From Rhodocyclales bacterium (lineage in GTDB: Bacteria; Pseudomonadota; Gammaproteobacteria; Burkholderiales; Rhodocyclaceae): 64,000 nucleotides of DNA. The DNA lies in contig JAQGMF010000033.1 of the NCBI GenBank assembly GCA_028292505.1, positions 1-64,000 on the forward strand, read 5' to 3'. Below the pieces are notes generated by a model that worked only from the letters and a program-made list of their open reading frames with translations, did no database searches and had not been told where the DNA came from. A program made the translations under genes and the position numbers. This document shows, one piece after another, positions 6,707-60,051 of the stretch (position 1 is the first letter of the stretch; each line of letters opens with the position of its first letter).

Positions 6707-6709
6707 ATT

Positions 6710-6779
6710 GTCATCCCGGCGAAAGCCGGGATCCAGAGGCGTCCCACCGTACTGGATTCCAGCCTTCGCCGGAATGACG
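6710..6779. repeat. Class A palindromic repeat (GTCATTCCCGC type)
   Basis: Two opposed copies of a GTCATCCCGGCGAAAGCCGG-type unit around a short centre. Other copies in this window are at 11241, 24835, 25408, 38252, 51245, 53041 and 58307. It fills the gap before the aminotransferase gene and creates a false in-frame N-terminal extension of that gene (PAFAGMTAK), which should not be annotated as coding. Confidence 0.85.
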
Positions 6780-6809
6780 GCAAAAATCTTACGCATGTTG
6801 GAGAGTTTC

Positions 6810-9271: not shown

Positions 9272-11209
9272 ATGAAAAAAATCCTGCTCAATAAGCTGTC
9301 GCAAAAGCCCTGGCCCCACGTTTTCATCGCTGGCGCGATGGTGGTGTTGGTGGTGTTGGCTTTCGCATTTCACATCAAACCGCAGTCTGCGCAGCCGGTT
9401 GCGCTCAACGCGATGCTGCAGCAGATCCGCAATGCGCCGGACACCTGGAAGGCCACCGAAGGCGACGTGTCCATGCTGATTCTGGACATGCAGAAGAACA
9501 ACGTGGCAGGTGTGGCGGTTGCGCCCTCGGGCATGTTCGTGACGGCCAAATCCGGCAAAAAGTATTTCGTCGCCGACGGCACGGGACGCTTCGCTGCGCT
9601 GGCGCTGGTCTCATATCACAAGGGCGAGACGGATGCGTTTCCGCTGGCCATGCTCGACAAGGACATCGAGCCGCCTTACAACTGGCGCGCCGACGTCGGT
9701 CTGCTGCTGACCTTATCTCTGCTGGGAGTCTTGTTGCTGCAAGGTTTCCGCATGACGGGTGGCGGCTTCAAATTCTCCAAGACCGAAACCCCCGTGACTT
9801 TCGACGATGTGATCGGCGCCAACGAAGCGAAGTCGGCGCTGCGCGACATCATGAGTTACCTCAAGGATGCCAAGGGCTTTACCGAGCTGGGCGCCCGGCC
9901 GCCGAAGGGCGTGTTGCTGTCGGGCCCACCGGGGACGGGCAAGACGCAACTGGCCAAAGCATTGGCGGGGGAGTGCGGTGTCAACTTCATTGCCGCGACT
10001 GGCGGCGATTTCTCGGCGATGTTTCTGGGTGTGGGCTCGTCACGCGTGAAATCGCTTTTCCGCAAAGCACGAAAAAATGCTCCATGCATAGTCTTTCTCG
10101 ACGAAATAGATGGCATCGGTCGTCGTACCACGACGGAAACGGGTGGCCCCGCTGAGTCGGAAGGCAATCGCATCATCAACCAGATTCTTGCCGAGATGGA
10201 TGGCTTCAGCTCCACCAGCGGTGTCATCGTCATCGGTGCGACCAACTATCCGGACCTGGTCGATCCAGCGCTGCTACGCGAAGGGCGCTTCGACCGCAAG
10301 ATACAGGTCGTATTGCCTGACGTATCCGACCGCACTGCGCTGTTCGAGCTGTATGCGAAGAATCTCAAGAGTGTCGGCGAACTCGACTACCCGCAGCTGG
10401 GGCGCATGACCACCGGCTTGACCCCCGCCGCCATCGCCTACGTCGTCAATCACGCGGCGCTGATCACGGCACGCAATCAGGAAAAAGAAGTCTCGATGCG
10501 CAATTTCGTCGAGGCTATCGAAGTATGCAGAATGGGTGAGAAGAACGGCGCCGGTTCGGCACTCACTGAGGCCGAGCGCGAGCGTATCGCCGTGCACGAA
10601 GCGGGTCACGCCATCATGGCGCAGGTGTTGGGCTGTGGTCAGGTCGAGAAGGTGACTATCCTGTCGCGTGGTGCAGCGCTCGGGGTGACGCTGGTGACGC
10701 AGAAGGAAGACAAACATCTGCACCTGAAGTCCGAACTCGAACATCGCATACAGATGCTGCTCGGTGGCCGCGCTGCCGAACTCATCACCTACAACGATGC
10801 GTCGAGCGGTGCGTCGAGCGATCTCAAGGAAGCCTCCAAGCTGGCACTGTCGATGGTCGCCACACTCGGCCTGGGCGACAACGGTACGCTGTTCAGCCTC
10901 GAAGCGCTGACTGCGCTCAATATCAAGCCGGATACGACCATCGCCGTTGCCGAAGCCGAAGCGGTACTGACCACACAAAACGAGCGCTGCCTGGCAACGC
11001 TGCGCGAACTCGAAGGCGCGCTGCAAGACCTCACCGCGCAGCTGCTGGAACACGAAACCATCGACGGCGCAGAAGTGGCCCGTGCCATCGCCGCGGCACG
11101 TGCTGCGCACGAAGAGCGGCGTAGCACCGATAGTCCCATGCGCGGCGCGATGCTGGCGTCGAAACTTTTGCCTGTGGAAGAGATGGTTGTTCAGGGGCGG
11201 GTTGCCTGA
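9272..11209 (+). CDS. FtsH-type membrane AAA+ zinc metalloprotease (paralogue)
   Basis: A 645-residue protein with full FtsH architecture: membrane segment at about 17-35, a periplasmic domain, a second membrane segment near 145-162, then an AAA+ module and an M41 peptidase. Walker A (GPPGTGKT, about 217-225), Walker B (VFLDEID, about 273), the arginine-finger region DPALLREGRFDR and the zinc site HEAGH (442-446) with D517 are intact. The pore loop reads AMFLGVG. The N-terminus and periplasmic part differ from housekeeping FtsH, so this is probably a second copy. It lies 159 bases after pseG; co-transcription is unproven. Confidence 0.88.
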   Translation: MKKILLNKLSQKPWPHVFIAGAMVVLVVLAFAFHIKPQSAQPVALNAMLQQIRNAPDTWKATEGDVSMLILDMQKNNVAGVAVAPSGMFVTAKSGKKYFVADGTGRFAALALVSYHKGETDAFPLAMLDKDIEPPYNWRADVGLLLTLSLLGVLLLQGFRMTGGGFKFSKTETPVTFDDVIGANEAKSALRDIMSYLKDAKGFTELGARPPKGVLLSGPPGTGKTQLAKALAGECGVNFIAATGGDFSAMFLGVGSSRVKSLFRKARKNAPCIVFLDEIDGIGRRTTTETGGPAESEGNRIINQILAEMDGFSSTSGVIVIGATNYPDLVDPALLREGRFDRKIQVVLPDVSDRTALFELYAKNLKSVGELDYPQLGRMTTGLTPAAIAYVVNHAALITARNQEKEVSMRNFVEAIEVCRMGEKNGAGSALTEAERERIAVHEAGHAIMAQVLGCGQVEKVTILSRGAALGVTLVTQKEDKHLHLKSELEHRIQMLLGGRAAELITYNDASSGASSDLKEASKLALSMVATLGLGDNGTLFSLEALTALNIKPDTTIAVAEAEAVLTTQNERCLATLRELEGALQDLTAQLLEHETIDGAEVARAIAAARAAHEERRSTDSPMRGAMLASKLLPVEEMVVQGRVA

Positions 11210-15364: not shown

Positions 15365-15511
15365 ATGAACATTTCAGTGAGTATCGGCCCGCTCGTAGCG
15401 TTGATCGCGGGTATCCTCATTCTCGTCGCGCCGCGCCTGCTCAACTACATCGTGGCGCTGTACCTGATCATCATCGGTTTGCTGGGACTTTTTGGCGGCC
15501 ATCTGCACTAG
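15365..15511 (+). CDS. DUF3096 small membrane protein
   Basis: A 48-residue protein, almost entirely two hydrophobic helices (PLVALIAGILILVAP, then YIVALYLIIIGLLGLFG). This is the layout of the DUF3096 family of tiny membrane proteins of unknown role. AAGGAG stands 7-8 bases before the ATG at 15365. Its TAG stop overlaps the first bases of a class C repeat. It was too short for routine gene finding but is well supported by the ribosome binding site and composition. Confidence 0.8.
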   Translation: MNISVSIGPLVALIAGILILVAPRLLNYIVALYLIIIGLLGLFGGHLH

Positions 15512-15631
15512 AACGCGCAACAAACGGGCTGCGCACGCGGCTGGCGTTGTTGGCCTGCTCGCCGTGCTTGAGCACTGCTCTGCGCAGGCCGCCTAGCCAG
15601 CCACGCGCTCGCTCCGTTTGTTGCACGTTCT
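15510..15631. repeat. Class C long hairpin repeat, copy 1
   Basis: About 122 bases with imperfect inverted ends (AGAACGCGCAACAAACGGG at one end, its near-complement at 15613-15631) and inner GC-rich arms. A second copy at 29150-29286 shares most of its sequence. Both begin at the TAG stop codon of the upstream gene. There is no coding capacity, so it is a MITE- or REP-like dispersed element. Confidence 0.8.
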
Positions 15632-24825: not shown

Positions 24826-24834
24826 TACGACGTC

Positions 24835-24914
24835 GTCATTCCCGCGAAGGCGGGAATCCAGTGGCTTTGGCAAAGTAACGAACGACACTGGATTCCCGCC
24901 TTCGCGGGAATGAC
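24835..24914. repeat. Class A palindromic repeat, paired units
   Basis: GTCATTCCCGCGAAGGCGGG and its inverted partner (CCCGCCTTCGCGGGAATGAC) enclose about 40 bases. It is the best-preserved copy with 38252-38337. It creates a false open frame upstream of the DUF2177 gene. Confidence 0.88.
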
Positions 24915-24978
24915 GGGGTTCTTTCGCGGTCCGCAGACAATAATTCAGCGCACCGAGTTCTCGCTGATTGGAGTTTCA

Positions 24979-27597: not shown

Positions 27598-27735
27598 TGG
27601 GGTCACGCTTTTCTGGGGGATTGGCCCCGATGTTAATTCAGCGCTCACCAGTTGCTGCATAAATCTGTCGGTCCGATCTCAAAGTAGGTTTGGGCTGCGA
27701 TGCTGGCGATGTTGATGTAATGCGCGGTGCTTGCT

Positions 27736-27886
27736 GTCCCCTCCCCGTGCGGGGAGGGTGGCTCGTCAGAGCCGGGAGAGGCGAAAGCGTAGTTGCAGGG
27801 TCAGCTCAAAAATAAAGGGATCAATGCACGAACGCTCCCCCCGCTCCCGGCTCTGACGAGCCACCCTCTCCCCAGGGAGAGGGGAC
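27736..27886. repeat. Class B palindromic repeat with long arms
   Basis: Inverted arms of about 40 bases (left arm from GTCCCCTCCCCGTGCGGGGA through GGCTCGTCAGAGCC, right arm its near-exact complement ending AGAGGGGAC) flank about 65 bases. With a class E repeat it accounts for much of the 508-base gap between the methyltransferase gene and pseI. No gene is seen in the rest of that gap. Confidence 0.85.
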
Positions 27887-28105: not shown

Positions 28106-29152
28106 ATGTTCGAAATCGGAGGCCGCCCGGTCGGCCTGCAAGCGGCGCCCTTCTTCATCGCCGAAATGAGCGGTAATCACAACGGCTCGCTGGATCGTGC
28201 GCTGGAAATCGTCGACGCCATTGCCAATGCCGGCGCGCACGCGCTGAAGCTGCAGACCTACACCGCCGACACGATGACGCTCAACATCCCGCACGGCGAG
28301 TTTCTGATCCAGGACGAGAAGAGCCTCTGGAACGGCCGCACCTTGTACGATCTCTACGAGGAAGCACACACTCCCTGGGCCTGGCATGCGCCGATCTTCG
28401 AGCGCGCCCGCAAGCGCGGCATGCTGGCCTTCTCGACGCCGTTCGATACCACTGCCGTGGATTTTCTCGCCGGCTTGGACGTGCCTTGCTACAAGGTTGC
28501 CAGTTTCGAAAATATTGATTTGCCATTGATCCGCAAAGTCGCCTCGATGGGTAAACCGATGATCATCTCGACGGGCCTCGCATCGCTCGTCGAAATTGCC
28601 GAAGCGGTGGACGCCGCACGCGGTGCCGGTTGCAAGGATCTGGTGATACTCAAATGCACCAGTACCTATCCGGCATCTCCAGCGGATAGCAATCTGCGCA
28701 CGATTCCGTACATGCGCGAAGTGCTCGGCGTGGAAGTCGGCTTGTCGGATCACACCTTGGGCATCGGCGCAGCGGTTGCCGCCGTGGCAATGGGCGCGAC
28801 CGTCATCGAGAAACACGTGACGCTGCGGCGCGCCGATGGCGGCGTGGACAGCGCCTTCTCACTGGAGCCGCAAGAGGTACGCATGCTGGTTGACGAGACC
28901 GAACGCGCACGCCAGGCCATGGGCATCGTGCGTTTCGGCGCCACCGAACGCGAGCGCGAGTCGCTGGTCTTCCGGCGTTCGTTGTATGTGGTGAAGGACG
29001 TGGCAGCGGGCGAAGTGTTCAGCGCGGAAAATATGCGCGCCATCCGCCCCGGTCTGGGTCTGCCGCCCAAGCACCAGGAACACATCACCGGCCGGCGCGC
29101 GTCACGCGACATTGCACGCGGTACGCCGATGAGCTGGGAGTTGCTGGCCTAG
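28106..29152 (+). CDS. pseI: Pseudaminic acid synthase
   Basis: Condenses 2,4-diacetamido-2,4,6-trideoxy-L-altrose with phosphoenolpyruvate to pseudaminic acid. A 348-residue protein: NeuB-type TIM barrel (residues 1-280, with EMSGNHNGSL, LKLQTYTADT, KCTSTYPA, GLSDHTLG, EKHVTL) and a C-terminal SAF/antifreeze-like domain (about 290-348, RRSLYVVKDVAAGE). The GAGGT ribosome site is close to the ATG. The gene is separated from pseBCG by about 19 kb, stands alone, and must be co-expressed for the pathway to work. The stop codon starts a class C repeat. Confidence 0.95.
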   Translation: MFEIGGRPVGLQAAPFFIAEMSGNHNGSLDRALEIVDAIANAGAHALKLQTYTADTMTLNIPHGEFLIQDEKSLWNGRTLYDLYEEAHTPWAWHAPIFERARKRGMLAFSTPFDTTAVDFLAGLDVPCYKVASFENIDLPLIRKVASMGKPMIISTGLASLVEIAEAVDAARGAGCKDLVILKCTSTYPASPADSNLRTIPYMREVLGVEVGLSDHTLGIGAAVAAVAMGATVIEKHVTLRRADGGVDSAFSLEPQEVRMLVDETERARQAMGIVRFGATERERESLVFRRSLYVVKDVAAGEVFSAENMRAIRPGLGLPPKHQEHITGRRASRDIARGTPMSWELLA

Positions 29153-29286
29153 AACCCGCAACAAAGTGGGCTGCGCACGCGCCTAGCGTTGTTGGCTCGC
29201 TCGCCGTGCTTTAGCACTGCTCTGCGCGAGCCCTCAGGTGGCAACATCGGCCAGCCACGTGCTCGCTCCATTTTGTTGCGGATTCT
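29150..29286. repeat. Class C long hairpin repeat, copy 2
   Basis: Starts at the TAG stop of pseI with TAGAACCCGCAACAAA and ends with a near-complement TTTTGTTGCGGATTCT. The interior shares GGGCTGCGCACGCG and GCCGTGCTT.AGCACTGC with copy 1 at 15510-15631. It carries a short internal insertion relative to copy 1. Confidence 0.8.
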
Positions 29287-34642: not shown

Positions 34643-36298
34643 ATGCTGCGCCGCCTTCTCATTTCCGATTTCGTACTGGTCGACCGCATCGAACTCGATT
34701 TTCGTATCGGCTTCGGTGCGCTGACGGGCGAGACGGGCGCGGGCAAATCCATTCTGCTCGATGCGCTGTCGTTGCTGCTCGGCGAACGTGCCGATGCCAA
34801 CGTCGTACGCAATGGCTGCGAGAAAGCCGACCTGGCGGCAGAGTTCGAGCTGGCGGCCGATTCGCCGGTGCGGGCATGGTTGCTGAGCCAGGACCTGGAA
34901 GCCAGTGAAGATGTGTTGCTGATACGCCGCGTCGTCGATAGCGGCGGCCGTTCGCGCGCTTATGTGAATGGCATGCCTGCCACGGCCACGCAGTTGCGCG
35001 AACTCGGCGAATTCCTGGCGGATATTCACGGGCAGCATGCGCATCAGGCGTTGCTGCGGCCCGATGCACAACGCATTCTGCTCGACGAGCACGCTGGCCT
35101 TGCGCCGCTCGCGAAGGAGGTCGGCAAGCTGTGGCGCGAACTCGTCGCGGCACGTCGCGCGCGTGAAGAGGCGCAACAACAACAGGCCGGTCTGGCGCGC
35201 GAGCAGGAGATGCTCGCCTTCCAGGTGCAGGAGCTTGACGGACTCAATTTCGGCGTCGGCGAGTGGGAGCCGCTCAATCAGGAACACGCGCGGCTCACCC
35301 ATGCTGCGAGCCTGATCGAAGGTGCCGGCGTGGCGCTGGAGGCTGTCAGCGAAAGCGAGCAACCGCTGACGACGCAGACCGAGCGACTCGCCGCCAAGCT
35401 GTTCGAACTCGCCGAATTCGATGCGACGCTCAAGGACATTGCCGAGTTGCTGAGCGAAGCGGCGATCCGCCTCGACGAAGCCGGCCATGCGCTCAAGCGC
35501 TACCAGGAACGTGTCGATCTCGACCCCGAACGGCTATCGCAACTCGATCAGCGACTTGCCGATGTCATGATGCTGACGCGCAAGTACCGCGTGCAGCCCG
35601 ACGAGTTGCCGAACTTCTTGATGGAAAGTCGCACGCGCCTCGACAGTCTCGCGGCGCTGGGCGATCCGGCCTTGCTTGCCGAGCGCGAACGCGCCGCCGA
35701 AAATGCTTTCCGCAAGGCTGCCCTACAGCTCTCGGAGAAGCGCGCTGTCGCCGCAAGGAAACTCGGCAGCGCCGTGACCGAAGCCATGCAGGAACTGGCC
35801 ATGCTGGGCGGCCGCTTCGAGATCGCGTTGCAGCCGGAGCCCGAAGGCAGTGCGCACGGTCTCGAAAAAATCGAATTCCAGGTGGCCGCCAATCCCAGCC
35901 AGCCACTGCGCCCGCTCGCCAAGGTGGCGTCGGGCGGCGAGTTGTCGCGCATCGGCTTGTCGATCCAGGTCATCGCCAGCGCCTCGCAAGCGGTGCCGAC
36001 ATTGATCTTCGACGAAGTGGATGTCGGCATCGGCGGTGGTGTGGCGGAAATTGTCGGGCGCCGTCTGCGCGAGCTGGGTAGCAAGCGGCAAGTGCTGTGC
36101 GTGACCCATCTGCCGCAGATTGCCGCGCAAGCGAACTGGCAGTGGAAGGTCGTCAAGGAGAACAAGGATGGCGTGACGCTATCGCGCCTCGTCGACCTCG
36201 ATCGAGGTGGCCGCGTCGAAGAGATCGCACGCATGCTCGGCGGCGTGAATATCACCGAGACGACGCGCAGTCATGCGGCGGAGTTGCTTGGAGGCTAG
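34643..36298 (+). CDS. recN: DNA repair protein RecN
   Basis: SMC-like ATPase for double-strand-break repair. A 551-residue protein: Walker A GETGAGKS at 29-36, DIHGQHAHQ, long coiled-coil arms (about 150-350), signature ASGGELSRIGLS, Walker B LIFDEVDVGIGG and the H-loop CVTHLPQIAA. The gene is intact. A diverged second copy of its last about 95 codons is at 37954-38238, beyond the oppositely oriented phoD. Confidence 0.95.
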   Translation: MLRRLLISDFVLVDRIELDFRIGFGALTGETGAGKSILLDALSLLLGERADANVVRNGCEKADLAAEFELAADSPVRAWLLSQDLEASEDVLLIRRVVDSGGRSRAYVNGMPATATQLRELGEFLADIHGQHAHQALLRPDAQRILLDEHAGLAPLAKEVGKLWRELVAARRAREEAQQQQAGLAREQEMLAFQVQELDGLNFGVGEWEPLNQEHARLTHAASLIEGAGVALEAVSESEQPLTTQTERLAAKLFELAEFDATLKDIAELLSEAAIRLDEAGHALKRYQERVDLDPERLSQLDQRLADVMMLTRKYRVQPDELPNFLMESRTRLDSLAALGDPALLAERERAAENAFRKAALQLSEKRAVAARKLGSAVTEAMQELAMLGGRFEIALQPEPEGSAHGLEKIEFQVAANPSQPLRPLAKVASGGELSRIGLSIQVIASASQAVPTLIFDEVDVGIGGGVAEIVGRRLRELGSKRQVLCVTHLPQIAAQANWQWKVVKENKDGVTLSRLVDLDRGGRVEEIARMLGGVNITETTRSHAAELLGG

Positions 36299-36326
36299 GC
36301 GACGCGCCGGCTCGCGCCATACTGCG

Positions 36327-37898
36327 TCAGAGCTTCTCCACCACCGAACGCCCCGCTTCCACGGCAAAGCTGGCCAGCGTTTCGATACCTGCATCGGGTT
36401 TTGTCACGTCGCTGACCACGCGCAATTTTGTCGTCAGATGTTTGGGCGTCAGCTCCACGACGCCATAGCCACGCCGGTAGCCATCGCCGAAGATGAAATG
36501 CGGGTTCTGAGCGACGAGGGCCGGGATGTGCTCCGGGTTGTTGTGGTTGGAACTGATGCTGGTACCGCAGAATTCGACGCCGACATTGGCGCTGTGCGGG
36601 TCGGCATAGTTTGACTTGATGTGGCCTACCCAATTGGAATGGACGTCGCCGCCCAGCATGACGGGGTTGGCACTCTTGCAGCGGACCAGGCTGTCGACGA
36701 TGCGCTGACGATTGTCCGGATATCCATCCCAGGCATCGTTGCTCACCGTGACTGTCTTGCCATGCGATTCGCGTAAGCCGAAAAGTGTTGCCTGCACAAG
36801 CACGGTCCAGCGCGGTGGCTGGGAGCCTGCGGCCTGCAGTCCGGCGTCCAGCCATTTTTCCTGTTCGGCGCCGAGCAGGCTGCGGCCGCTCTCGTGCAGC
36901 GCCGCGCAGGTATCGGCACGAACGGTGCTGCCGCCGCCCTGGCCGTCCTTGCTGCAGGCTTGCAAGCTGCGATATTGACGATTGTCGAGGATATGAAAAT
37001 CGGCCAGATCGCCGAAAGAGGTGCGGTCGTAAAGACGCATTTCTGCGCCCGCGCCCACCTGGGTGGCGCCCTGCAGCGCGCGCGACAGCACACTTGCGCG
37101 CAGCGGCATGTTTTCGTAATAGGCCTGGTAGGCAGCGGCGCGTTGCGCGGGGAATTCCGCCGGCAGCCCCGGCGCTTGCAATCCGGCATAGTCGTTGATG
37201 ACTTCGTGATCGTCCCAGGTGAGCAGCCACGGGCAGCGGGCGTGCATGCCTTGCAGGTTTTCGTCGCTCTTGTAAAGCGCATAGCGCGCGCGGTAACCGG
37301 CAAGATCGACGGGCTTGCCCAGCGTATGCGAGCGCACATCTTTCTTGTTCTTGCCGTATTCGTATATGTAGTCGCCGACGAAAAACACGGCATCGAGTTC
37401 CTCGTCCTGCATGTGCCGCCAGGCGCTGTAGTAGCCATGCTCCCAGCGTTGGCACGAGGCATAGGCCAGCCGCATTTTTGCAGCCGCCGAGCCGGGTGCC
37501 GGGAAGGTGCGCGTGCGACCGACATGGCTGTCATGACCTTGGGTGTGGAAGCGGTAGAAGTACCAGTGGTCTGGCTGCAGATCGGAGAGTTCCACATGAA
37601 TGGAGTGGCCGAACTGGGGCAGTGCAGGGGCACTGCCCTTCTGCACGATGTGGCGGAACTGCTCGTCATGGGCGACTTCCCAATCGACGCCTATGGGCTT
37701 GCTGTCGAAGGCTCCTTCGGCTGCGATCAGTCGCGTCCACAACACGACGCTGTCGTGGCGCGGCGAGCCGCTCGCTATGCCGAGGGCGAATGGATTTTCG
37801 CCGAGGGGGGCACCGATGGAGGCACCCAACAGGCTGCGTGGCAAACTTTGGGCAACCGCTGCGGCAGAAGCCAGCTTGATGAGTTCGCGACGATTCAT
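36327..37898 (-). CDS. phoD: PhoD-type alkaline phosphatase/phosphodiesterase, Tat-exported
   Basis: A 523-residue protein with a twin-arginine-like leader (MNRRELIKLASAAAVAQSLP), an N-terminal Ig-like domain (about 40-140) and a metallophosphatase domain. Visible are the SCQRWEHGYY block, DAVFFVGDYIYEYG, TWDDHEVINDYAG, VMLGGDVHSNWVG and a C-terminal EFCGTSISS; these carry the Fe/Ca ligands of PhoD. AGGGAGG precedes the ATG at 37898. It is nested between recN and a relic of the recN tail, so it probably arrived by insertion. Confidence 0.9.
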   Translation of the reverse strand: MNRRELIKLASAAAVAQSLPRSLLGASIGAPLGENPFALGIASGSPRHDSVVLWTRLIAAEGAFDSKPIGVDWEVAHDEQFRHIVQKGSAPALPQFGHSIHVELSDLQPDHWYFYRFHTQGHDSHVGRTRTFPAPGSAAAKMRLAYASCQRWEHGYYSAWRHMQDEELDAVFFVGDYIYEYGKNKKDVRSHTLGKPVDLAGYRARYALYKSDENLQGMHARCPWLLTWDDHEVINDYAGLQAPGLPAEFPAQRAAAYQAYYENMPLRASVLSRALQGATQVGAGAEMRLYDRTSFGDLADFHILDNRQYRSLQACSKDGQGGGSTVRADTCAALHESGRSLLGAEQEKWLDAGLQAAGSQPPRWTVLVQATLFGLRESHGKTVTVSNDAWDGYPDNRQRIVDSLVRCKSANPVMLGGDVHSNWVGHIKSNYADPHSANVGVEFCGTSISSNHNNPEHIPALVAQNPHFIFGDGYRRGYGVVELTPKHLTTKLRVVSDVTKPDAGIETLASFAVEAGRSVVEKL

Positions 37899-37953
37899 GG
37901 AACCTCCCTGTGGTCGGGAATCGATTGTCGCATGCCGTTGTGGCTCGAACATT

Positions 37954-38238
37954 GCCGTAGGTATTCGCGTAGGAGGGAGTGTCGCGGAGATTGTCGGCCG
38001 CCGCCTGCGTGAGCTCGGCAGCAATCGCCAAGTTATATGCGTAATGCATTTTCAGCAGGTCGCAGCCCAGGCAAATTGGCAGTGGAAGGTCGTCAAGAAA
38101 AACAAGGATGGCGTGACGCTGTCGCGCCTCGTCGACCTCGATCGAGGCGGCCGCGTAGAAGAGATTGCACGCATGCTCGGTGGTGTGAATATCACGGAGA
38201 CGACGCGCAGCCATGCGGCGGAGTTACTCGGTTCCTGA
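37954..38238 (+). pseudogene. recN 3'-end relic (about 95 codons)
   Basis: The translation VAEIVGRRLRELGS..QWKVVK and onward to SHAAELLGS matches the C-terminus of RecN (residues about 458-551), including the same stop region. The H-loop CVTHLPQIAAQ is altered to CVMHFQQVAAQ. Identity is high over 38090-38230 and lower before that. There is no start codon, no ATPase N-terminal half and no Walker A. The intact tail lies 1.9 kb away on the same strand, on the other side of phoD. Confidence 0.85.
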
Positions 38239-38251
38239 ACCATTCCCGTCC

Positions 38252-38337
38252 GTCATTCCCCGCGAAGGCGGGAATCCAGCGACGTTAACCAACGGACAAG
38301 GGCAAAGCCACTGGATTCCCGCCTTCGCGGGAATGAC
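38252..38337. repeat. Class A palindromic repeat, paired units
   Basis: GTCATTCCCCGCGAAGGCGG and the inverted partner CCCGCCTTCGCGGGAATGAC flank about 45 bases. It lies between the recN relic and the convergent metallophosphoesterase gene. Confidence 0.88.
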
Positions 38338-38352
38338 ATTGTGATATGAGCC

Positions 38353-39534
38353 TCATTCTGAGGCCGCGGCGATCAGCCTCAGCCGCGTAATTTCAGCTGG
38401 CGCGCCGAAGCGTTTGGGCGGGCCCCAATAACCTGTGCCCCGGCTCGTATAAATCCACAACTGGTTCAGACGATGCAGTCCCGCCGTGTAAGGCTGCTGC
38501 AGGCGGACGAATAGGTTCCAAGGCCAGAACTGGCCACCATGCGTGTGCCCCGAAAGTTGCAGATCGAAGCCTGCGTCGGCAGCTGCCTGTGCTGAGCGTG
38601 GCTGATGTGCGAGCAGTATTCTTGGCATGCCCGCAGGGCTGCCGACGAGAGCGCGTTGCGGGTCGCTGCGTTGGGCAACATCAAACTGATACGCGGTGTA
38701 ATCAGTCACGCCTGCCACTACGAGCGAGGCGCCAGCGTGCTGCACGACCCGGTGCTCATTCATCAAAGCGTCCATGCCAAGCCGCTGATATTCCACGACC
38801 CACTGCGACGCACCGGAGTAATACTCGTGGTTGCCGGTGACGACGTAGGAACCGTGCCGCGAGCTCAGTTTTCCAAGCGGCGCGATATCCGCCGACAACT
38901 CCTCGACGCTGCCGTCGATCAGGTCGCCGGTGAGCGCGATCAGGTCGGCGCCAAGCGCGTTGACGCGCCTGACAATCGCTTCAACCTTCGCCGCCTTGAT
39001 GGTCGGGCCGACATGCAGGTCACTGATCTGCACGATGGTAAAACCTTCCAGCGCAGGCGGCAGGTCGCGTAAAGGGACGTCCACATCGACGACACTCGGC
39101 AAGCGGCGCGCATTGATGAAGCCGACCAGAGTCACCACAAATGCCAGCATGGGTACTGCGGCTGCGGTCACGTGGGCCAAGTGTGCTGAGCCCGCAAACG
39201 CCAGCACGAAGTCACGCGCCAGCGTCAGCACCAGCAGCGACGAAAACAGCCCCATGGACAGGAAGCCCACCCAAGCCAGCCGGTCCGTCAGCGCCTGAGG
39301 CCAAGTAAAAAAGCGGCTGAGTGTGCCGAGTGGAATCAGTAAGGCCGATAAGACCAGAAGGCCGATGCCAAGGCCTAAGCCGGTGCTGTCAAGCGCCAGG
39401 TCTGGCAGCAGGCGAATGCCGATGTAGGCGTGCAGGCCCGCAAGGATCAGAATGATGACGGACAACACACGTGCGGGCCGTCCTCTACGTGGTGGCGTTA
39501 CCTCGTCTTGCAATACGTCGGTTTGCTGCGACAT
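38353..39534 (-). CDS. Membrane-anchored metallophosphoesterase
   Basis: A 393-residue protein with an N-terminal membrane domain of about four helices (residues 22-145) followed by a calcineurin-like phosphoesterase domain. The dimetal-site motifs appear in order: SDLHVG, GDLIDG, GNHEYY, then GHTHGGQFW. YaeI-like enzymes of this layout cleave phosphodiester or pyrophosphate bonds, in some cases of lipids. The start at 39534 has CGGAG 6 bases upstream. Substrate unknown. Confidence 0.87.
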   Translation of the reverse strand: MSQQTDVLQDEVTPPRRGRPARVLSVIILILAGLHAYIGIRLLPDLALDSTGLGLGIGLLVLSALLIPLGTLSRFFTWPQALTDRLAWVGFLSMGLFSSLLVLTLARDFVLAFAGSAHLAHVTAAAVPMLAFVVTLVGFINARRLPSVVDVDVPLRDLPPALEGFTIVQISDLHVGPTIKAAKVEAIVRRVNALGADLIALTGDLIDGSVEELSADIAPLGKLSSRHGSYVVTGNHEYYSGASQWVVEYQRLGMDALMNEHRVVQHAGASLVVAGVTDYTAYQFDVAQRSDPQRALVGSPAGMPRILLAHQPRSAQAAADAGFDLQLSGHTHGGQFWPWNLFVRLQQPYTAGLHRLNQLWIYTSRGTGYWGPPKRFGAPAEITRLRLIAAASE

Positions 39535-39722
39535 GGTTCTCCGATTTTCGTGAAGCATGAGTGTTCGCAGTTTGCATCAGCAGCGAATTTTTCAAGTCGC
39601 ACTTACGTAAAGATGAGGTAAAGAAATGTGGCGATTTCCTGAGTCTGCCGCATGCTGTCCCTCATCCCGCTAGCCTGCAAACCAAGAAGATAGCGAAAGA
39701 AGATTCCACGTTGTCACGTAAA

Positions 39723-42700
39723 ATGGCGGGCTTCTCTCCGCATCCATTTTTGCATCATTCTCCCTTGGCTTCCTTGCTCGATCTCCTGCTTTCCAAAGAC
39801 CGGCCCGCTTTGCATCGCGCACTGCGGACGCTGCCTGCTCGCATCGAAAGCTTGCAGGATATGCCAGATGTATTAAGGGAAAGGTTCGAACGCAGTATCG
39901 CCAACCGGGCAACGCGGCGTGCGGGTTTGCCGAAGCCGACCTTTCCGGCAGATCTTCCGGTCAACCAGCGACGCGATGAAATCGCCGCGGCCATCCGCGA
40001 CAATCAGGTGGTGATCGTCTGTGGCGAAACGGGATCGGGAAAAACCACGCAGATTCCAAAGATATGTCTGGAGCTTGAGCGTGGTGAAGCAGGGCTGATT
40101 GGTCACACCCAGCCACGCCGCATCGCAGCGCGCGCAACGGCGGCGCGCATCGCCGAGGAACTGGACACCGAACTCGGCGGCGTGGTCGGTTACAAGATTC
40201 GCTTCACCGATCACACCAAGCCGGACAGCTACGTCAAGGTAATGACAGATGGCATCCTGCTGGCGGAAACGCAGGGCGACCCCCTGTTGTCGGCGTATGA
40301 CACGCTCATTATCGATGAAGCACACGAACGCAGTCTGAACATCGATTTTCTGCTTGGCTATTTGCGCACGCTGTTGTCAAAACGGCCCGACCTGAAGGTC
40401 ATCGTCACGTCGGCAACGCTGGATGCAGAGCGCTTTGCGAATCACTTCGCGCATGATGGCAAGCCTGCCCCGGTCATCGAAGTCTCGGGGCGCTTGTATC
40501 CCATCGAGGTGCGCTACCGGCCCATCGAGGACGAGACCAAGCCCGGCTTCGTTGCACAACAGAGCCAGCGCGAACGCGAACTGGCGGCCCAACGCGCAGC
40601 GCGTCGGCAAGACAAGGACTTGTACGAAGCCATCGTCGATGCCGTCGATGAGCTGCAAGGCGAGGGCTCCGGCGACGTGCTGGTATTTCTGCCCGGCGAG
40701 CGGGAGATCCGCGAAGCGGCCGAGGCGCTGCGCAAACATGCCTTCGGTGGCGCGGGGCGAGGCACGGAGATACTGACCTTGTTCGCGCGTCAGTCGGCGC
40801 AGGAGCAGCAGCGGGTATTCGGCCGATCCAACGGTCGGCGCGTCGTGTTGTCGACCAATGTGGCCGAGACATCGCTGACCGTGCCCGGCATTCGCTACGT
40901 GGTCGATGCGGGTCTGGCGCGCATGAATCGCTATTCGGTGCGCAACAAGGTCGAGTTGTTGCAGGTCGAAAAGATCGCGCAAAGTGCTGCCAAGCAAAGG
41001 GCAGGGCGCTGCGGTCGTGTGCAGGATGGCATTTGCATACGCCTGTATGCCGAAGACGACTTCAACCGACGACTGGAACATACGGAGCCCGAGATTTTGC
41101 GCTCGTCACTGGCCGGTGTGATCCTGCGCATGAAGTCGCTGCATCTTGGCGCGGTGGAGGAATTTCCCTTCATCGATGCGCCGACGCCGCGTGCCATTGG
41201 CGATGGTTATCAATTGCTGCAGGAACTGGGCGCAGTGGATGAAGTCCCCGCTGCCCAGGGAGAGGGTGCCCCGGAGGGGCGGGAGAGGGGAAAGGGCGGC
41301 GAAGCAACGCGTTCCCCTCTCCCGGCCCACAGGGCCACCCTCCCCCGAGGGGGAGGGGACAGCAACGTGCAAAGCGCGGCTGACAGATTTGAGCTTACGG
41401 CCATAGGAAAGGAACTCGCCAAGCTACCCCTCGACCCCAAGATTGGCCGCATGTTGCTGGCGGCACGTGACCGTAATTGCCTGCATGAAGTGCTGGTGAT
41501 TGCCGCTGCGCTGTCGACGCAAGATCCGCGCGAGCGTCCACCCGAGCAGAGCGGCACGGCCGATCAGGCACATGCGAAATTTCGCGTCGCCCCTGACGAC
41601 AAGCAGGAGCCGCGCTCGGAGTTCCTGTGGTACTGCAATCTGTGGCGCATAGCCGACGAAATCTGGAAGCACGAGTCCTCGTCAAAACAGAAAGCCTGGT
41701 GCAAGCAGCACTTCCTGTCGTGGATGCGCATGCGCGAATGGCGTGACGTGCACAGCCAGTTGCATGTGTTATGCACCGAGCATGGCTGGAAAGAAAACAC
41801 GGAGCCGGCCGATTACGAGCAATTGCACAAGGCCTTGCTGACGGGTTTGCTCGGGCATATCGGCGTGAAGCAGGAAGAAACAGTCGGGCAGAACGCGGGC
41901 GCTTATCTTGGCGCGCGCGCCATTCGCTTCTGGCCGCACCCGAGCTCATATCTGGCGAAGAAAGCCGGCAAGTGGCTGATGGCGGCTGAACTGATCGACA
42001 CATCGCGACTATATGCACGTTGCATTGCGCGCATCGAACCGGAATGGATCGAAGAGGTTGGCGGCCATCTCGTCAAGAAGCAGGTGTACGAGCCGCACTG
42101 GGAGAAGAAGCACGGTGCCGTGCGCGCCTACGAGCGCGGCGTCCTGTACGGCATCACGCTGTATGCGCGGCGATCCGTGGGTTACGCGCATGTCGATCCG
42201 GCGGCGTGCCGAGAGATATTCATCCGCGAGGCGCTGGTAGAAGGCGATCTGGATGATGCTCATGCCAAAGGCATGCCCTTCTTCCAGCACAACGAGCGTT
42301 TGATGGTCGAGATCGAACGTCTCGAACACAAGATGCGCCGTCCCGATCTGCTGGTTGACAAGTCCTTGATCGAAGCCTTTTATGACGCGCAGATACCGCA
42401 GGATGTGACCGACGTGCGCAGCTTCGAGGCGTGGCGCAAGAAGGCCGAGCGCGAGCAACCGCGTCGTTTGCACCTTGAGCGCGAGCAGTTGATGCGTCAC
42501 GAGGCGGCGGGTGTGACCAGCGATAATTTTCCCGCATCAATGATGGTGCTGGGGCAGAAGCTCAAGCTGAGCTATGTGCACGAGCCGCGCGATCCCGAAG
42601 ACGGTGTGACTTTGGGCGTGCCCTTGGCGATGCTCAACCAGGTGCCCATCAATCGTTGCGAGTGGCTTGTGCCTGGCTTGCTTGAAGAGAAGGTCGCCTC

Positions 42701-44093
42701 GCTGATGAAGAGCGTGCCGCCCAAGCATCGGCATCGTCTGCAACCGATCAGTGAGAGCGCGCGCGAATTCATGGTGGCGTTCAACGAGAAGAAGTTTGAT
42801 ACCGAGCAGCCGTTGCTGCGCGTATTGCAGACCTTCGTCGAGGAGCGTGTGCAGTTGAAATTGCCGCTGGAGAGTTTTCGCACTGAAAACCTGAATCCGC
42901 ATTGCTTCATGAACTTCCGCGTGATCGATGAACATGGTCGCGCGCTGGGACAGTCGCGCAACCTGATGGATCTGCGCTTGCGTTTGAAGGATCAGGTGCT
43001 GGCGGCGTTTCGTGCGGGGCAGGTGGAAGGGGCGATCGGGGCGCAGTTGGCTGGATTGAACTTGAAGGGCAATGCCGAAGCGGATGTAAGTGAAGGGGTT
43101 GACGTTACTGCCCTCTCCCCCAGCCCCTCTCCCGCAGGCGGGCGAGGGGAGGCACAGCACCCTCTCCCGCTTGCGGGAGAGGGTGGCCCGCAGGGCCGGG
43201 AGAGGGAAGTCACGCAGGCCGCGCCACAATCAGAAGCAGTGCTCTCCGGTCTCACCACCTGGTCCTTCGGCGAACTCCCTGAACTGCTCGAAGTAAAAGT
43301 CGGCAACCGTATGCTGATTGGTTTTCCGGCTTTGAATGACGACGGCAATTCTGTGAGTCTGCGTCCATTCGATACCGAGGAAGAAGCGACACGCATGCAT
43401 CGCAGGGGGCTGGCGCGGTTGTTTGCATTGACGCTCAAGGATCAGGTCAAAGGCATCGAACGTCTGCCCGGCCTGCGCGATCTGGCTCTGAAGTTTCTGC
43501 CCTTTGGCAACGAGGCCGAACTCAAGGCACAGCTTATCGAGGCAACACTGACGCGCACCTGTCTGCTGCCGCCGTGGCCGAGCGATGCCGAATCATTTGA
43601 CTTGCGCGCGCGGCAGGCCAAGCCGCGCATCATGCTCGTGGCACAGGAGCTGATGCGCTTGGTGGGTTCGCTTCTTACCGAGCATGCGGTGGTGACGAAG
43701 AAGCTCGTCGGCTTGAAGGGGGGTAACGAACTGGCCGCAGATATTCATGCGCAGCTCGAACGCCTTATGACAAAGGACTTTCTGGTGGCCCAGCCCTACG
43801 AGCGTTTGACGCACTTCGCCCGCTACCTGAAAGCGGCGGCGGTGCGTGTCGACAAATGGCGCAACGATCCCGCCCGCGATGCGCAGCTGCTCGGCGAATG
43901 GCGCTCGGTGGCAGCACCTTTCGAGCGCGAGCATCTGGCCAAACTGAAAGCTGGCGTGGTCGATCCGCAATTGGAGGAATTTCGCTGGCTGCTGGAGGAA
44001 CTGCGCGTGAGTCTCTTCGCGCAAGAACTCAAGACGCCCGTGCCCGTGAGCGCGAAGCGCTTGCAGAAAATCTGGTCAGGTAGGCCGAGGTAG
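39723..44093 (+). CDS. hrpA: DEAH-box ATP-dependent RNA helicase HrpA, with two repeat-derived insertions
   Basis: A 1456-residue helicase, longer than the about 1300 of E. coli HrpA. Walker A GETGSGKT is near 101-108, DEAH at 198-201, SAT in VTSATLD, NVAETSLTVPG and QRAGRCGR near 425. HA2/OB and the DUF3418 C-terminal domain follow. Two in-frame segments (about residues 509-548 and 1129-1164) are low-complexity Gly/Arg/Pro/Glu stretches encoded by class B repeats. The first sits between the ELGAVDE and FELTAIGKEL blocks that are adjacent in E. coli. HrpA resolves stalled ribosomes. The ATG at 39723 is preferred over upstream codons. Confidence 0.93.
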   Translation: MAGFSPHPFLHHSPLASLLDLLLSKDRPALHRALRTLPARIESLQDMPDVLRERFERSIANRATRRAGLPKPTFPADLPVNQRRDEIAAAIRDNQVVIVCGETGSGKTTQIPKICLELERGEAGLIGHTQPRRIAARATAARIAEELDTELGGVVGYKIRFTDHTKPDSYVKVMTDGILLAETQGDPLLSAYDTLIIDEAHERSLNIDFLLGYLRTLLSKRPDLKVIVTSATLDAERFANHFAHDGKPAPVIEVSGRLYPIEVRYRPIEDETKPGFVAQQSQRERELAAQRAARRQDKDLYEAIVDAVDELQGEGSGDVLVFLPGEREIREAAEALRKHAFGGAGRGTEILTLFARQSAQEQQRVFGRSNGRRVVLSTNVAETSLTVPGIRYVVDAGLARMNRYSVRNKVELLQVEKIAQSAAKQRAGRCGRVQDGICIRLYAEDDFNRRLEHTEPEILRSSLAGVILRMKSLHLGAVEEFPFIDAPTPRAIGDGYQLLQELGAVDEVPAAQGEGAPEGRERGKGGEATRSPLPAHRATLPRGGGDSNVQSAADRFELTAIGKELAKLPLDPKIGRMLLAARDRNCLHEVLVIAAALSTQDPRERPPEQSGTADQAHAKFRVAPDDKQEPRSEFLWYCNLWRIADEIWKHESSSKQKAWCKQHFLSWMRMREWRDVHSQLHVLCTEHGWKENTEPADYEQLHKALLTGLLGHIGVKQEETVGQNAGAYLGARAIRFWPHPSSYLAKKAGKWLMAAELIDTSRLYARCIARIEPEWIEEVGGHLVKKQVYEPHWEKKHGAVRAYERGVLYGITLYARRSVGYAHVDPAACREIFIREALVEGDLDDAHAKGMPFFQHNERLMVEIERLEHKMRRPDLLVDKSLIEAFYDAQIPQDVTDVRSFEAWRKKAEREQPRRLHLEREQLMRHEAAGVTSDNFPASMMVLGQKLKLSYVHEPRDPEDGVTLGVPLAMLNQVPINRCEWLVPGLLEEKVASLMKSVPPKHRHRLQPISESAREFMVAFNEKKFDTEQPLLRVLQTFVEERVQLKLPLESFRTENLNPHCFMNFRVIDEHGRALGQSRNLMDLRLRLKDQVLAAFRAGQVEGAIGAQLAGLNLKGNAEADVSEGVDVTALSPSPSPAGGRGEAQHPLPLAGEGGPQGREREVTQAAPQSEAVLSGLTTWSFGELPELLEVKVGNRMLIGFPALNDDGNSVSLRPFDTEEEATRMHRRGLARLFALTLKDQVKGIERLPGLRDLALKFLPFGNEAELKAQLIEATLTRTCLLPPWPSDAESFDLRARQAKPRIMLVAQELMRLVGSLLTEHAVVTKKLVGLKGGNELAADIHAQLERLMTKDFLVAQPYERLTHFARYLKAAAVRVDKWRNDPARDAQLLGEWRSVAAPFEREHLAKLKAGVVDPQLEEFRWLLEELRVSLFAQELKTPVPVSAKRLQKIWSGRPR
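41247..41363. repeat. Class B repeat inserted in frame in hrpA (first)
   Basis: CCCAGGGAGAGGGTGCCCCG and GGGAGAGGGGA on one side pair with TCCCCTCTCCCGG and GGGCCACCCTCCCCCG on the other; together these form the class B palindrome. The element keeps the reading frame open and is expected to be translated within the HA2/winged-helix part of HrpA. Confidence 0.85.
43108..43210. repeat. Class B repeat inserted in frame in hrpA (second)
   Basis: CCCTCTCCCCCAGCCCCTCT, GCAGGCGGGCGAGGGGAGG, and then the hairpin CCCTCTCCCGCTTGCGGGAG, ending CGGGAGAGGGAAG. It is translated as a Pro/Ser/Gly/Arg-rich stretch within the C-terminal DUF3418 region. Confidence 0.85.
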
Positions 44094-44097
44094 GGTC

Positions 44098-44208
44098 GTA
44101 GGTCGGGGTGAGCGCTAGCGATGCCCAACATCGGTCGCGGCAAACGAAACGTATAGAGAGATCGATCAATGTTTCGTGTTGGGCATCGCGTTGCTCACCC
44201 CGACCTAC
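44098..44208. repeat. Class D inverted repeat
   Basis: Arms GTAGGTCGGGGTGAGCG plus GATGCCCAACA and the complementary TGTTGGGCATCGCG plus CTCACCCCGACCTAC, each about 32 bases, around 46 AT-richer bases. A half copy is at 15693-15725. It lies between hrpA and flgK. Confidence 0.85.
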
Positions 44209-51218: not shown

Positions 51219-51244
51219 CTATAGCAAAGGCCTATTTTCAGATC

Positions 51245-51312
51245 GTCATTCCGGCGAAGGCCGGAATCCAGTGTCGCGTGCAATCTGGATCCCGGCCTTC
51301 GCCGAGATGACG
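51245..51312. repeat. Class A palindromic repeat, paired units
   Basis: GTCATTCCGGCGAAGGCCGG and the inverted ATCCCGGCCTTCGCCGAGAT unit fill the gap between ureC and ureE. Confidence 0.85.
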
Positions 51313-53417: not shown

Positions 53418-53518
53418 TTCCCTCTCCCGCTTGCGGGAGAGGGGCTGGGGAGAGGGATATCACAAGCCTTCCCTCTCCCGGCCTATCGGCCACCCTCTCC
53501 CGCAAGCGGGAGAGGGAA
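53418..53518. repeat. Class B palindromic repeat between ureJ and ureB
   Basis: Two hairpins CCCTCTCCCGCTTGCGGGAG and CCCTCTCCCGCAAGCGGGAG, themselves inverted relative to each other, around CTTCCCTCTCCCGGCC. Confidence 0.88.
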
Positions 53519-55345: not shown

Positions 55346-55470
55346 TTTCCCCTCTCTCGGCCTCCGTCCACCCTCCCCCGAGGGGGAGGGAACTGCATGG
55401 CGTAGTCGGATCGTTGCTGTTTCCTCGCCCTGAGGGAGAGGGTGGCCCGTCAGGGCCGGGAGAGGGGGAA
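55346..55470. repeat. Class B palindromic repeat between urtE and ureD
   Basis: TTTCCCCTCTCTCGG and CCACCCTCCCCCGAGGGGGA, then GAGGGAGAGGGTGGCCCGTC and a final CCGGGAGAGGGGGAA. The outer arms are inverted. It separates the transporter and urease halves of the locus. Confidence 0.82.
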
Positions 55471-55491
55471 TGCGTCAATCATTGACGAGCC

Positions 55492-57200: not shown

Positions 57201-58300
57201 GGCCGCTCTCCACGTTTTTGCAGCAGGGCTCGTGCTTCGCCGAGTACGCCGCGCGGCAGATACAAAGTAACCAACACGAAGATCAGACCAAGGAAAAACA
57301 ACCAGTATTCGGGGAAAGCCATCGTGAACCAGCTCTTCACGCCATTGATGAGGCCCGCGCCGATCAGCGGACCGATCAGGCTGCCACGCCCGCCGACGGC
57401 GACCCAGATGGCGATCTCGATGGAATTGGCCGGCGACATCTCGCTCGGGTTGATGATGCCTACCTGTGGCACGAACAGCGCGCCGGCAATGGCGCAGATC
57501 ACCGCCGACATGACCCAGATGAACAGCTTGTATGGCAGCGGGTTGTAGCCGGAGAACATGACGCGCGTCTCGGCATCGCGAATCGCGGCGAGCACGCGAC
57601 CCAGCTTGCTGGTAACGATGTAACGCGCCAGCAGCAGGAAGCCGATCAGGAAAGCTGCAGTAAGAACGAATAGCACGACGCGCGTTATCGGCGACGTGAT
57701 GTGATAACCGAGAATGCGCTTGAAATCCGTAAAGCCGTTATTGCCGCCAAAGCCGGTTTCATTGCGGAAGAACAGCAGCATGGTGGCGAAGGTCAGCGCC
57801 TGCGTGATGATCGAGAAATACACCCCCTTGATGCGTGAGCGGAAGGCGAAGAAACCGAAGATCAGCGCCAGCAAGCCGGGCACCAGGATCACTAACAGCA
57901 GCGCCCACAGGAAGTGCTGCGTGCCTTCCCAATACCAAGGCAGCGTCTTCCAGTTGAGAAACACCATGAAGTCGGGCAGGTCGCTCTGGTAGTTGCCGTC
58001 GTGGCCGATGGCGCGCATCAGATACATGCCCATGGCATAGCCGCCAAGCGCGAAGAAAATACCGTGGCCGAGCGACAAGATGCCGGTGTAGCCCCACACG
58101 AGGTCCATGGCCAGCGCGACGATGGCGTAGCACATGATCTTGGCGATCAGCGTTACCCAATACGTTGGCATATGGAATACGCTGCTCTCGGGCACGGCGA
58201 GATTGAGGATCGGTACGAGGATTAGCGTGATCGCAGCGAAGACCGCGAGGGCTGCCCAGGCTTTGGGCCCGAAGATGCGTTCGATGAGTGTCTTGTTCAT
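57197..58300 (-). CDS. urtC: Urea ABC transporter permease UrtC
   Basis: A 367-residue LivM-type inner-membrane permease of about ten helices with ALAMDLVWGYTGILSLGHG, FFALGGYAMGMYLM and a C-terminal GGRGSLIGPLIGAG. The start at 58300 follows the family; the frame above it is class A repeat DNA. Confidence 0.94.
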   Translation of the reverse strand: MNKTLIERIFGPKAWAALAVFAAITLILVPILNLAVPESSVFHMPTYWVTLIAKIMCYAIVALAMDLVWGYTGILSLGHGIFFALGGYAMGMYLMRAIGHDGNYQSDLPDFMVFLNWKTLPWYWEGTQHFLWALLLVILVPGLLALIFGFFAFRSRIKGVYFSIITQALTFATMLLFFRNETGFGGNNGFTDFKRILGYHITSPITRVVLFVLTAAFLIGFLLLARYIVTSKLGRVLAAIRDAETRVMFSGYNPLPYKLFIWVMSAVICAIAGALFVPQVGIINPSEMSPANSIEIAIWVAVGGRGSLIGPLIGAGLINGVKSWFTMAFPEYWLFFLGLIFVLVTLYLPRGVLGEARALLQKRGERP

Positions 58301-58306
58301 GATTTC

Positions 58307-58385
58307 GTCATTCCCGCGAACGCGGGAATCCACTTGATAAGCAAGACTTGTGGGGCACGTGGATTCCCGTTTGCACGGGAATGAC
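58307..58385. repeat. Class A palindromic repeat, paired units
   Basis: GTCATTCCCGCGAACGCGGG and the inverted TGGATTCCCGTTTGCACGGG-type partner fill the urtB-urtC gap. Confidence 0.85.
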
Positions 58386-58407
58386 GCACGAGGAGGGTTG
58401 GCTTGCG

Positions 58408-60051
58408 TTACGCATCCACAAACCTCCCCTTGATCGCGAACAGACCTTGCGGGCGTTTCTGGATGAATACGATGATGAACACGAGCACAGCAATCTTGGC
58501 GAGCACCGCGCCAGCCCAGCCTTCAAGGAACTTGTTGAGAATGCCCAAGCCCAGCGCCGCGTAAATCGTGCCGGATAGCTGACCGACGCCGCCGAGCACC
58601 ACCACCATGAATGAGTCGACGATGTAGCCCTGGCCGAGATCCGGCCCGACGTTGGTGACTTGCGACAGCGCGCAACCGGCAAGACCTGCGATGCCTGCAC
58701 CGAGACCAAACGCAACGGTGTCGATGCGCGGCGTGGCCACGCCAACGCAGCTTGCCATCTGGCGGTTCTGCGTCACGGCGCGCACGAAAAGTCCAAGCCT
58801 CGTCTTCGTCAGGATCAGCGTCATGCCGATCACGACGAGCGCCGCGAACAGGATGATGGCGAGGCGATTCCACGGCAGGATCAGATTGCTCATCACCTGT
58901 ATGCCACCCGAGAGCCACTGCGGATTTTCGACGAGCACATTCTGCGCGCCGAAGAACGTGCGCACGGTCTGGATCAGGATGAGGCTGATACCCCACGTGG
59001 CAAGCAATGTCTCAAGCGGACGGCCGTAGAGATGCTTGATGACGAGTCGCTCCATGAGCACGCCGATCAGGCCAGAAGTGAGAAAGGCAACGGGCAGGGC
59101 AAACAGCGGGTAGAACTCGATGAGCCCCGGAAAGTGCGCGTGAATGACATTCTGCGTTACGTATGTGGCATAAGCACCGATCATGATCAGCTCGCCGTGC
59201 GCCATGTTGATGACGCCCATCAGTCCGTAGGTGATGGCGAGTCCGAGCGCGGCCAGGAGCAGGATGCTGCCCAATGAGATGCCGGTGAAGATGCTGCCGA
59301 GCCACTCGCCACGGCGCAGGCGCGAGCTGATGGCATTGATGCCATTCTGTGCGGCGAGGCGCACGCTCTCGTCGGGCTCCTTGAATTTGTCTCCGTCCTT
59401 GTCCAGCAGGCCGGCGAGTAGCTGCTTCATGGCAGCGTCGTCACTTGTGCCCAATGTTTCGATGGCGGCCATGCGTACGGCCTTGTCCTTGTTATGCAAT
59501 TGTGCTGCGGCTTGCGTCATGCGCAACATGTCGAGGATCTGCGGATCTTTCTCGATCTTTTGCGCTTTGTCGAGCAGTGGCACGATGGCTTCGTCGGGCG
59601 CGTCCTGCAGTTTCTTCACCGCTTCGAAACGCGTCTTCCTGTCGGGCGAAGTCAGGTCGAGCGCGGCAAATGCATCTTGCAACGCAAGCGTGACGCGGTT
59701 GTTCGTCACCACGTCTTCAGCATTTTCCGGCAGTGCGGGCAGCGTGGCGCCGGTTACGGCATCGGTCACCTTGTCGCCGTCGACGATCAGTACCTGTTTG
59801 CCGTCGACCACTTTCAGTGCATCGTTGCCAAGCGCTTGCAGCAGCGGCAGGGCTTCAGGGTCGGCGCTGCCGGCGATGGCGTTGAGCGCCTCGACCTTGG
59901 CATCGTTGTCACCCGCTGCGAGCTTGAGAATCAGCGCCGGCGAAGGCTTGGCAAGCGCAAGCGGAGCGGCACAGAGAATCAGCAAGAACAATGCCGAATG
60001 AATAATCTGTGAAGCGAGGCGAGAACGAGATGAAGTCCGGGATGATGTCAT
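58408..60051 (-). CDS. urtB: Urea ABC transporter permease UrtB
   Basis: A 547-residue LivH-type permease: a signal-like helix (about 20-40), an N-terminal HEAT-like exported region (about 45-250, with RKTRFEAVKKLQDAP and RMAAIETLGTS) and then the membrane domain (GLAITYGLMGVINMAHGELIMIGAY, TKTRLGLFVRAVTQN). The long N-terminal extension is a known property of UrtB. The start at 60051 was chosen. Confidence 0.93.
   Translation of the reverse strand: MTSSRTSSRSRLASQIIHSALFLLILCAAPLALAKPSPALILKLAAGDNDAKVEALNAIAGSADPEALPLLQALGNDALKVVDGKQVLIVDGDKVTDAVTGATLPALPENAEDVVTNNRVTLALQDAFAALDLTSPDRKTRFEAVKKLQDAPDEAIVPLLDKAQKIEKDPQILDMLRMTQAAAQLHNKDKAVRMAAIETLGTSDDAAMKQLLAGLLDKDGDKFKEPDESVRLAAQNGINAISSRLRRGEWLGSIFTGISLGSILLLAALGLAITYGLMGVINMAHGELIMIGAYATYVTQNVIHAHFPGLIEFYPLFALPVAFLTSGLIGVLMERLVIKHLYGRPLETLLATWGISLILIQTVRTFFGAQNVLVENPQWLSGGIQVMSNLILPWNRLAIILFAALVVIGMTLILTKTRLGLFVRAVTQNRQMASCVGVATPRIDTVAFGLGAGIAGLAGCALSQVTNVGPDLGQGYIVDSFMVVVLGGVGQLSGTIYAALGLGILNKFLEGWAGAVLAKIAVLVFIIVFIQKRPQGLFAIKGRFVDA

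Follow-up and report, generated by a model that had tools for sequence, protein, structure and literature searches.

A doubled recN 3' end around an inverted phoD gene in an uncultured Rhodocyclales bacterium, with probable replacement of the gene end between lineages

Introduction

Homology-facilitated illegitimate recombination has been described in the competent species Acinetobacter baylyi, Streptococcus pneumoniae and Pseudomonas stutzeri, and rarely in Escherichia coli conjugation (PMC3240628). Single crossovers of incoming circles, for their part, have produced mostly partial duplications, of 109-950 bp (PMC3240628). Displacement of gene ends is also on record, with circles proposed for the displacement of Rhs tips (PMC2935791) and one-sided recombination proposed for displaced type VI effectors (PMC5361080). 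Our literature searches on partial duplication with transformation, and on recN together with phoD, found nothing.

Here we describe a locus in which the end of recN stands twice on one strand, with an inverted phoD gene in between. The host is an uncultured Rhodocyclales bacterium with a draft genome of 57 contigs, and the window analyzed is a stretch of 64,000 nucleotides of one of these (JAQGMF010000033.1).

The Doubled recN End and Its Surroundings

A BLASTN search of the region against the window matched 36039-36291 to 37979-38231 on the same strand, with 85.4% nucleotide identity over 253 bp and an E value of 2e-79, the top-scoring repeat of the whole window. This bears out a preliminary description of the locus, which had reported a doubled recN end on one strand around an inverted phoD. 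The doubled part comprises the last ~86 codons of recN (36039-36298 and 37979-38238), with an intact, inverted phoD separating the copies, and a whole-genome search found exactly two recN loci, namely the intact gene and the relic. The features of the region are as follows, with the role given to each tail being the one argued for below.

34643..36298, plus strand: intact recN, 551 aa (open reading frame with SMC_N/RecN match), with the phoD-joined tail as its end
36039..36298, plus strand: recN tail, first copy of the direct repeat (BLASTN, codon analysis)
36299..36326, no strand: recN-phoD spacer of 28 bp between convergent genes, lacking the palindromic repeat found after the sister-species recN
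36327..37898, minus strand: phoD, an intact gene whose product, alkaline phosphatase D, has a twin-arginine-like leader plus the domains PhoD_N and PhoD
37899..37978, no strand: phoD upstream region with the putative illegitimate junction, most likely near 37955
37979..38238, plus strand: relic recN tail, the putative displaced resident end (BLASTN, synteny with the sister species, branch counts)
38250..38337, no strand: palindromic REP-like repeat, aligning with 6458-6540 of the sister-species locus L004 and with more copies in the window
38353..39558, minus strand: metallophosphoesterase gene, a colinear match (81% aa) to the gene directly next after recN and the repeat in the sister species

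The intact RecN has Walker A, Walker B/D-loop and H-loop, and aligns up to its last residue with the Deinococcus RecN structures 4ad8 and 4aby, the 4ad8 alignment spanning TGETGAGKS, FDEVDVGIGG and VTHLPQ. It is 91% identical in amino acids to the RecN of Rhodocyclales bacterium RYN_555 (G001), the sole other sampled species of the genus and hereafter the sister species. The relic is no RecN by these features: it has no start, Walker A or Walker B, and ~86 terminal codons are left. Its translation (VAEIVGRRLRELGSNRQVICVMHFQQVAAQ...HAAELLGS*) contains no internal stop, so that the open frame is indeed kept through the stop, as had been claimed. Equally real is the reported change of the H-loop from CVTHLPQ in recN to CVMHFQQ in the relic (THLPQ to MHFQQ), at a site where THL and the final Q are conserved in every aligned relative and in Deinococcus RecN.

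The start at 37954 given earlier for the relic is plausible, though soft. Ungapped homology to recN begins at 37979, and a gapped stretch, GTAGGTATT plus 6 nt plus GGAGGGAGTGTC, which resembles VGI--GGGVA, may extend the homology to ~37955. The segment 37899..37978 is unique within the genus, with no match >14 bp in the fetched loci, and Rfam gave no match over 36200-38450.

The conserved H-loop also bears on whether contigs of two strains were misjoined near 37955. The draft state of the assembly leaves room for such an artefact, as does the fact that the junction is backed by no other genome. The functional tail of another strain would not, however, carry MHFQQ, given that THL and the final Q are universal among the aligned relatives and Deinococcus RecN, and the junction has no long shared repeat that might mislead an assembler. 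We thus regard a misassembly as improbable.

Ancestral Gene Order

The sister species has the order hrcA-nadK-recN-palindromic repeat-metallophosphoesterase-hrpA, colinear with the window, with a single recN and no phoD; the earlier expectation that a relative without phoD has a single tail thus holds true for this species. In the window, the same repeat and metallophosphoesterase gene come after the relic, and not after the intact recN tail. Since the relic has the ancestral right-hand repeat and gene, synteny points to it as the resident recN end, an old 3' end retained downstream with its ancestral neighbor. A recN tail match was obtained in 190 genomes of the family, and of these only the host genome has two adjacent tails. 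Three other double matches were rejected: one reflects a contig break (G135), another a pair of full-length copies lying on different contigs (G160), and the third is weak and contains stops (G036).

Integrative elements restore the ends of the genes that they enter, leaving a displaced copy behind. One could accordingly suppose that a small site-specific element integrated at the recN 3' end and that the tails are its attachment repeats. Yet the 1.94-kb stretch between the repeats carries phoD only and no integrase, the repeats (253 bp at 85%) are neither short nor near identical, and the arrangement occurs in no other sampled genome. We give this explanation hardly any credence.

phoD and Its Distribution

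The phoD frame opens at 37898 (MNRREL) and closes at 36327, with 28 bp separating it from the stop of recN. Both of its Pfam domains (PF09423, 4e-98; PF16655, 7e-30) score above the curated cut-off, and judging from this family its product should be a secreted phosphodiesterase/alkaline phosphatase. At E 1e-130, phoD was detected in 14 other genomes out of the 399 of the family, in a scattered distribution. The closest family relative shares 55% of amino acids, the best match outside the family 58% (in a phylum sample), and no plasmid-borne phoD exceeded 46%. Missing in the congener and patchy in the family, phoD is, by its distribution, foreign to the lineage. Its GC content of 0.62 and GC3 of 0.74 are like those of the neighboring genes, which makes composition uninformative as a marker of foreign origin.

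None of the 21 other phoD genomes has phoD adjoining recN, so the donor is unsampled. In the nearest case the two genes share a contig (G051:C58, with phoD inside locus L040), where the pair, at 42538-44103 and 57780-59447, lies 13.7 kb apart, possibly by coincidence.

Divergence of the Two Tails

Between recN and the relic we counted 30 synonymous and 10 nonsynonymous changes (dS 0.75, dN 0.054, dN/dS 0.07), and third codon positions hold 32 of the 40 differences, in agreement with the earlier remark that many of them are synonymous. When the sister species is taken as reference, recN and the relic each have 17 private changes. Those of the relic comprise 11 synonymous and 6 nonsynonymous ones, of which 13 fall at third positions (p=3e-4), and those of recN 13 synonymous and 4 nonsynonymous ones. 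Four of the five private amino-acid replacements of the relic fall in codons 485-491 and may therefore be non-independent, making any age estimate rough.

The preliminary description had named tandem duplication and decay as the alternative. These counts can be set against such an origin, in which a duplication in the host's own lineage gave recN a second tail that decayed from the outset, and phoD was later inserted between the copies. The relic is adjacent and in direct orientation, as such a duplication would leave it, and the tails share 27 sites with each other versus 15 and 17 with the congener. Simulations of a tandem duplication with a second copy free from the start, run at the observed synonymous divergence, nevertheless yielded a median of 53 nonsynonymous changes (5-95% range 34-75), as against the 10 observed with no stops. 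Only 13% of the simulated neutrally decaying relics were stop-free, and 10 or fewer nonsynonymous changes arose in 0 of 627 runs. The relic-private changes, moreover, are mainly synonymous and do not outnumber those private to recN. Rescuing this alternative would take a second functional, full-length recN that persisted in the lineage through the greater part of the divergence period, and an adjacent second recN was present in no sampled family genome. Contradicted by branch counts and simulation alike, tandem duplication appears very unlikely.

In the simulations, the data were fitted by orthologue-like divergence under constraint, followed by ~8 neutral mutations in the relic. Together with the low dN/dS, this indicates that the tails are alleles which diverged in two lineages, mostly while functional, and that the relic died late.

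Distance to the Congener and a Mosaic Tail

The preliminary description had expected one tail to group with vertical relatives and the other with a different lineage, and this was not seen with the genomes sampled. The two tails are 80.4% and 79.6% identical to the sister species, and in the tree the recN tail, the relic and the congener form an unresolved trio. With both tails equally distant from the congener, the tree cannot tell which of them is foreign, and the direction of transfer rests on synteny. Equal closeness of both tails to all relatives had been put forward as a result that would speak against replacement. It was observed with respect to the only congener, and we read it as a sign that, on these distances, this species may be an outgroup to both tails rather than as a refutation.

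Divergence is also uneven along the tail. In the first 40 tail codons, recN and the relic have a pS of 0.68, which falls to 0.31 in the last 45 (p=0.0005 for the break). Over the last 45 codons, both tails are far from the sister species (pS 0.71-0.82), and the last 50 codons of recN differ from it at pS 0.78, compared to 0.45-0.59 elsewhere in the gene. Such a mosaic makes one clean replacement too simple; going by the pattern of differences, contributions may have come from a crossover inside the tail, from exchange at an earlier date, or from a segment of foreign origin in the sister species.

A crossover inside the tail would be expected under one mechanistic variant of end replacement, namely a Campbell-type single crossover of a circle carrying the recN end and phoD. 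The intact recN would then be resident before the crossover and incoming after it, with the relic reversed. The outlying last 50 codons of recN are consistent with this variant, target-gene partial duplications of 109-950 bp arose in this way in E. coli (PMC3240628), and circular intermediates have a precedent in the proposal for Rhs tip displacement (PMC2935791). A simple crossover, however, predicts equal divergence on both sides, unlike the 0.68 and 0.31 observed, and the last part of the relic is likewise far from the congener (0.71). We consider the variant possible but somewhat doubtful; its probability forms a share of that of end replacement as a whole and does not add to it.

Proposed Event

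Given these results, the locus probably arose by replacement of the recN end between lineages and displacement of the old end, by either a linear or a circular route. The incoming fragment would have come from a close relative outside the sample, and on it that relative's own recN 3' end would have been joined to a convergent phoD. At the left joint, homologous exchange within recN would have produced an intact recN with the incoming end, and the left side is indeed continuous recN. At the right joint, near 37955, the phoD upstream region would have been joined to the resident recN just past Walker B without long homology, and none was found there in comparisons within the genus and with the fetched loci. 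The last ~90 codons of the resident gene would thereby have been kept, moved 1.94 kb downstream and deprived of their start, and would now be starting to decay. In a single exchange of this kind, the incoming DNA may have been a linear fragment that entered by homology-facilitated illegitimate recombination, or a circle that integrated by a single crossover. The preliminary description had likewise proposed insertion of phoD with a replacement tail and survival of the original end; synteny and the substitution pattern uphold this, while identification of the foreign tail by tree did not succeed. A ComEC-type competence protein is encoded in the genome, but as the same is true of 10 of 14 control genomes, it says little about the route.

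A far more speculative reading would make the recN 3' end a recurrent, integrase-free landing place for foreign genes in Rhodocyclales through tail replacement, with the kept tail still serving some purpose, perhaps within the phoD promoter region or as a reservoir for gene conversion with recN, there being no private nonsynonymous change in the last 45 relic codons. We think this highly improbable; if true, it would mean that whole foreign genes enter Rhodocyclales repeatedly without an integrase.

Other Repeats in the Window

The palindromic REP-like family (CATTCCCGC...GCGGGAATGAC) occurs at 6707-6788, 24834-24916, 38250-38337, 51243-51276 and 58305-58386, and is also present in the sister species. 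There, at ~10005-10139 of locus L004, a copy seems to lie in frame within hrpA (VIPAKAGIQ...LDSGFRRND). At the corresponding place in the window (41795-41826), hrpA is without this in-frame repeat, a situation reminiscent of palindromic elements that have inserted into open reading frames. Short repeats internal to hrpA were observed at 41307-41367 and 43111-43209, in coding frame as PSPAGGRGE / PLAGEGGPQGRER peptides, with related copies at 27731-27882, 53420-53516 and 55397-55475. A further direct repeat pairs 15508-15624 with 29149-29279 (131 bp, 79% identity).

Comparison With Known Systems

The kind of event is already known, and recN/phoD is a new example of it. Homology-facilitated illegitimate recombination would be alike in having homology at one joint only and in the gain of ~1 kb of foreign DNA, and its products bear a hallmark microhomology of 3-10 bp at the illegitimate joint. 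Laboratory events of this type usually delete a similar-sized piece of resident DNA, whereas here the resident DNA was retained and the gene end was thus doubled. In the partial duplications left by single crossovers of circles, the end of the target gene is similarly duplicated around foreign DNA (PMC3240628). The recN case differs in being natural, with alleles ~15% diverged and a second copy that is decaying.

Rhs C-terminal ends (PMC2935791) and type VI effector/immunity ends (PMC5361080) share with recN an acquired 3' end that takes over while the old end is orphaned downstream. Their new tips, however, differ from the old ones and owe their selection to toxin or immunity functions, whereas recN is a housekeeping gene with two tails of one and the same function, so that any advantage under selection would lie in phoD. 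The locus preserves, outside the laboratory, what is probably a one-sided integration into a housekeeping gene, and it shows how a single gene can be gained without a mobile element. Since both end alleles are preserved side by side, one genome is enough to read off the divergence between donor and recipient and, roughly, how old the event is.
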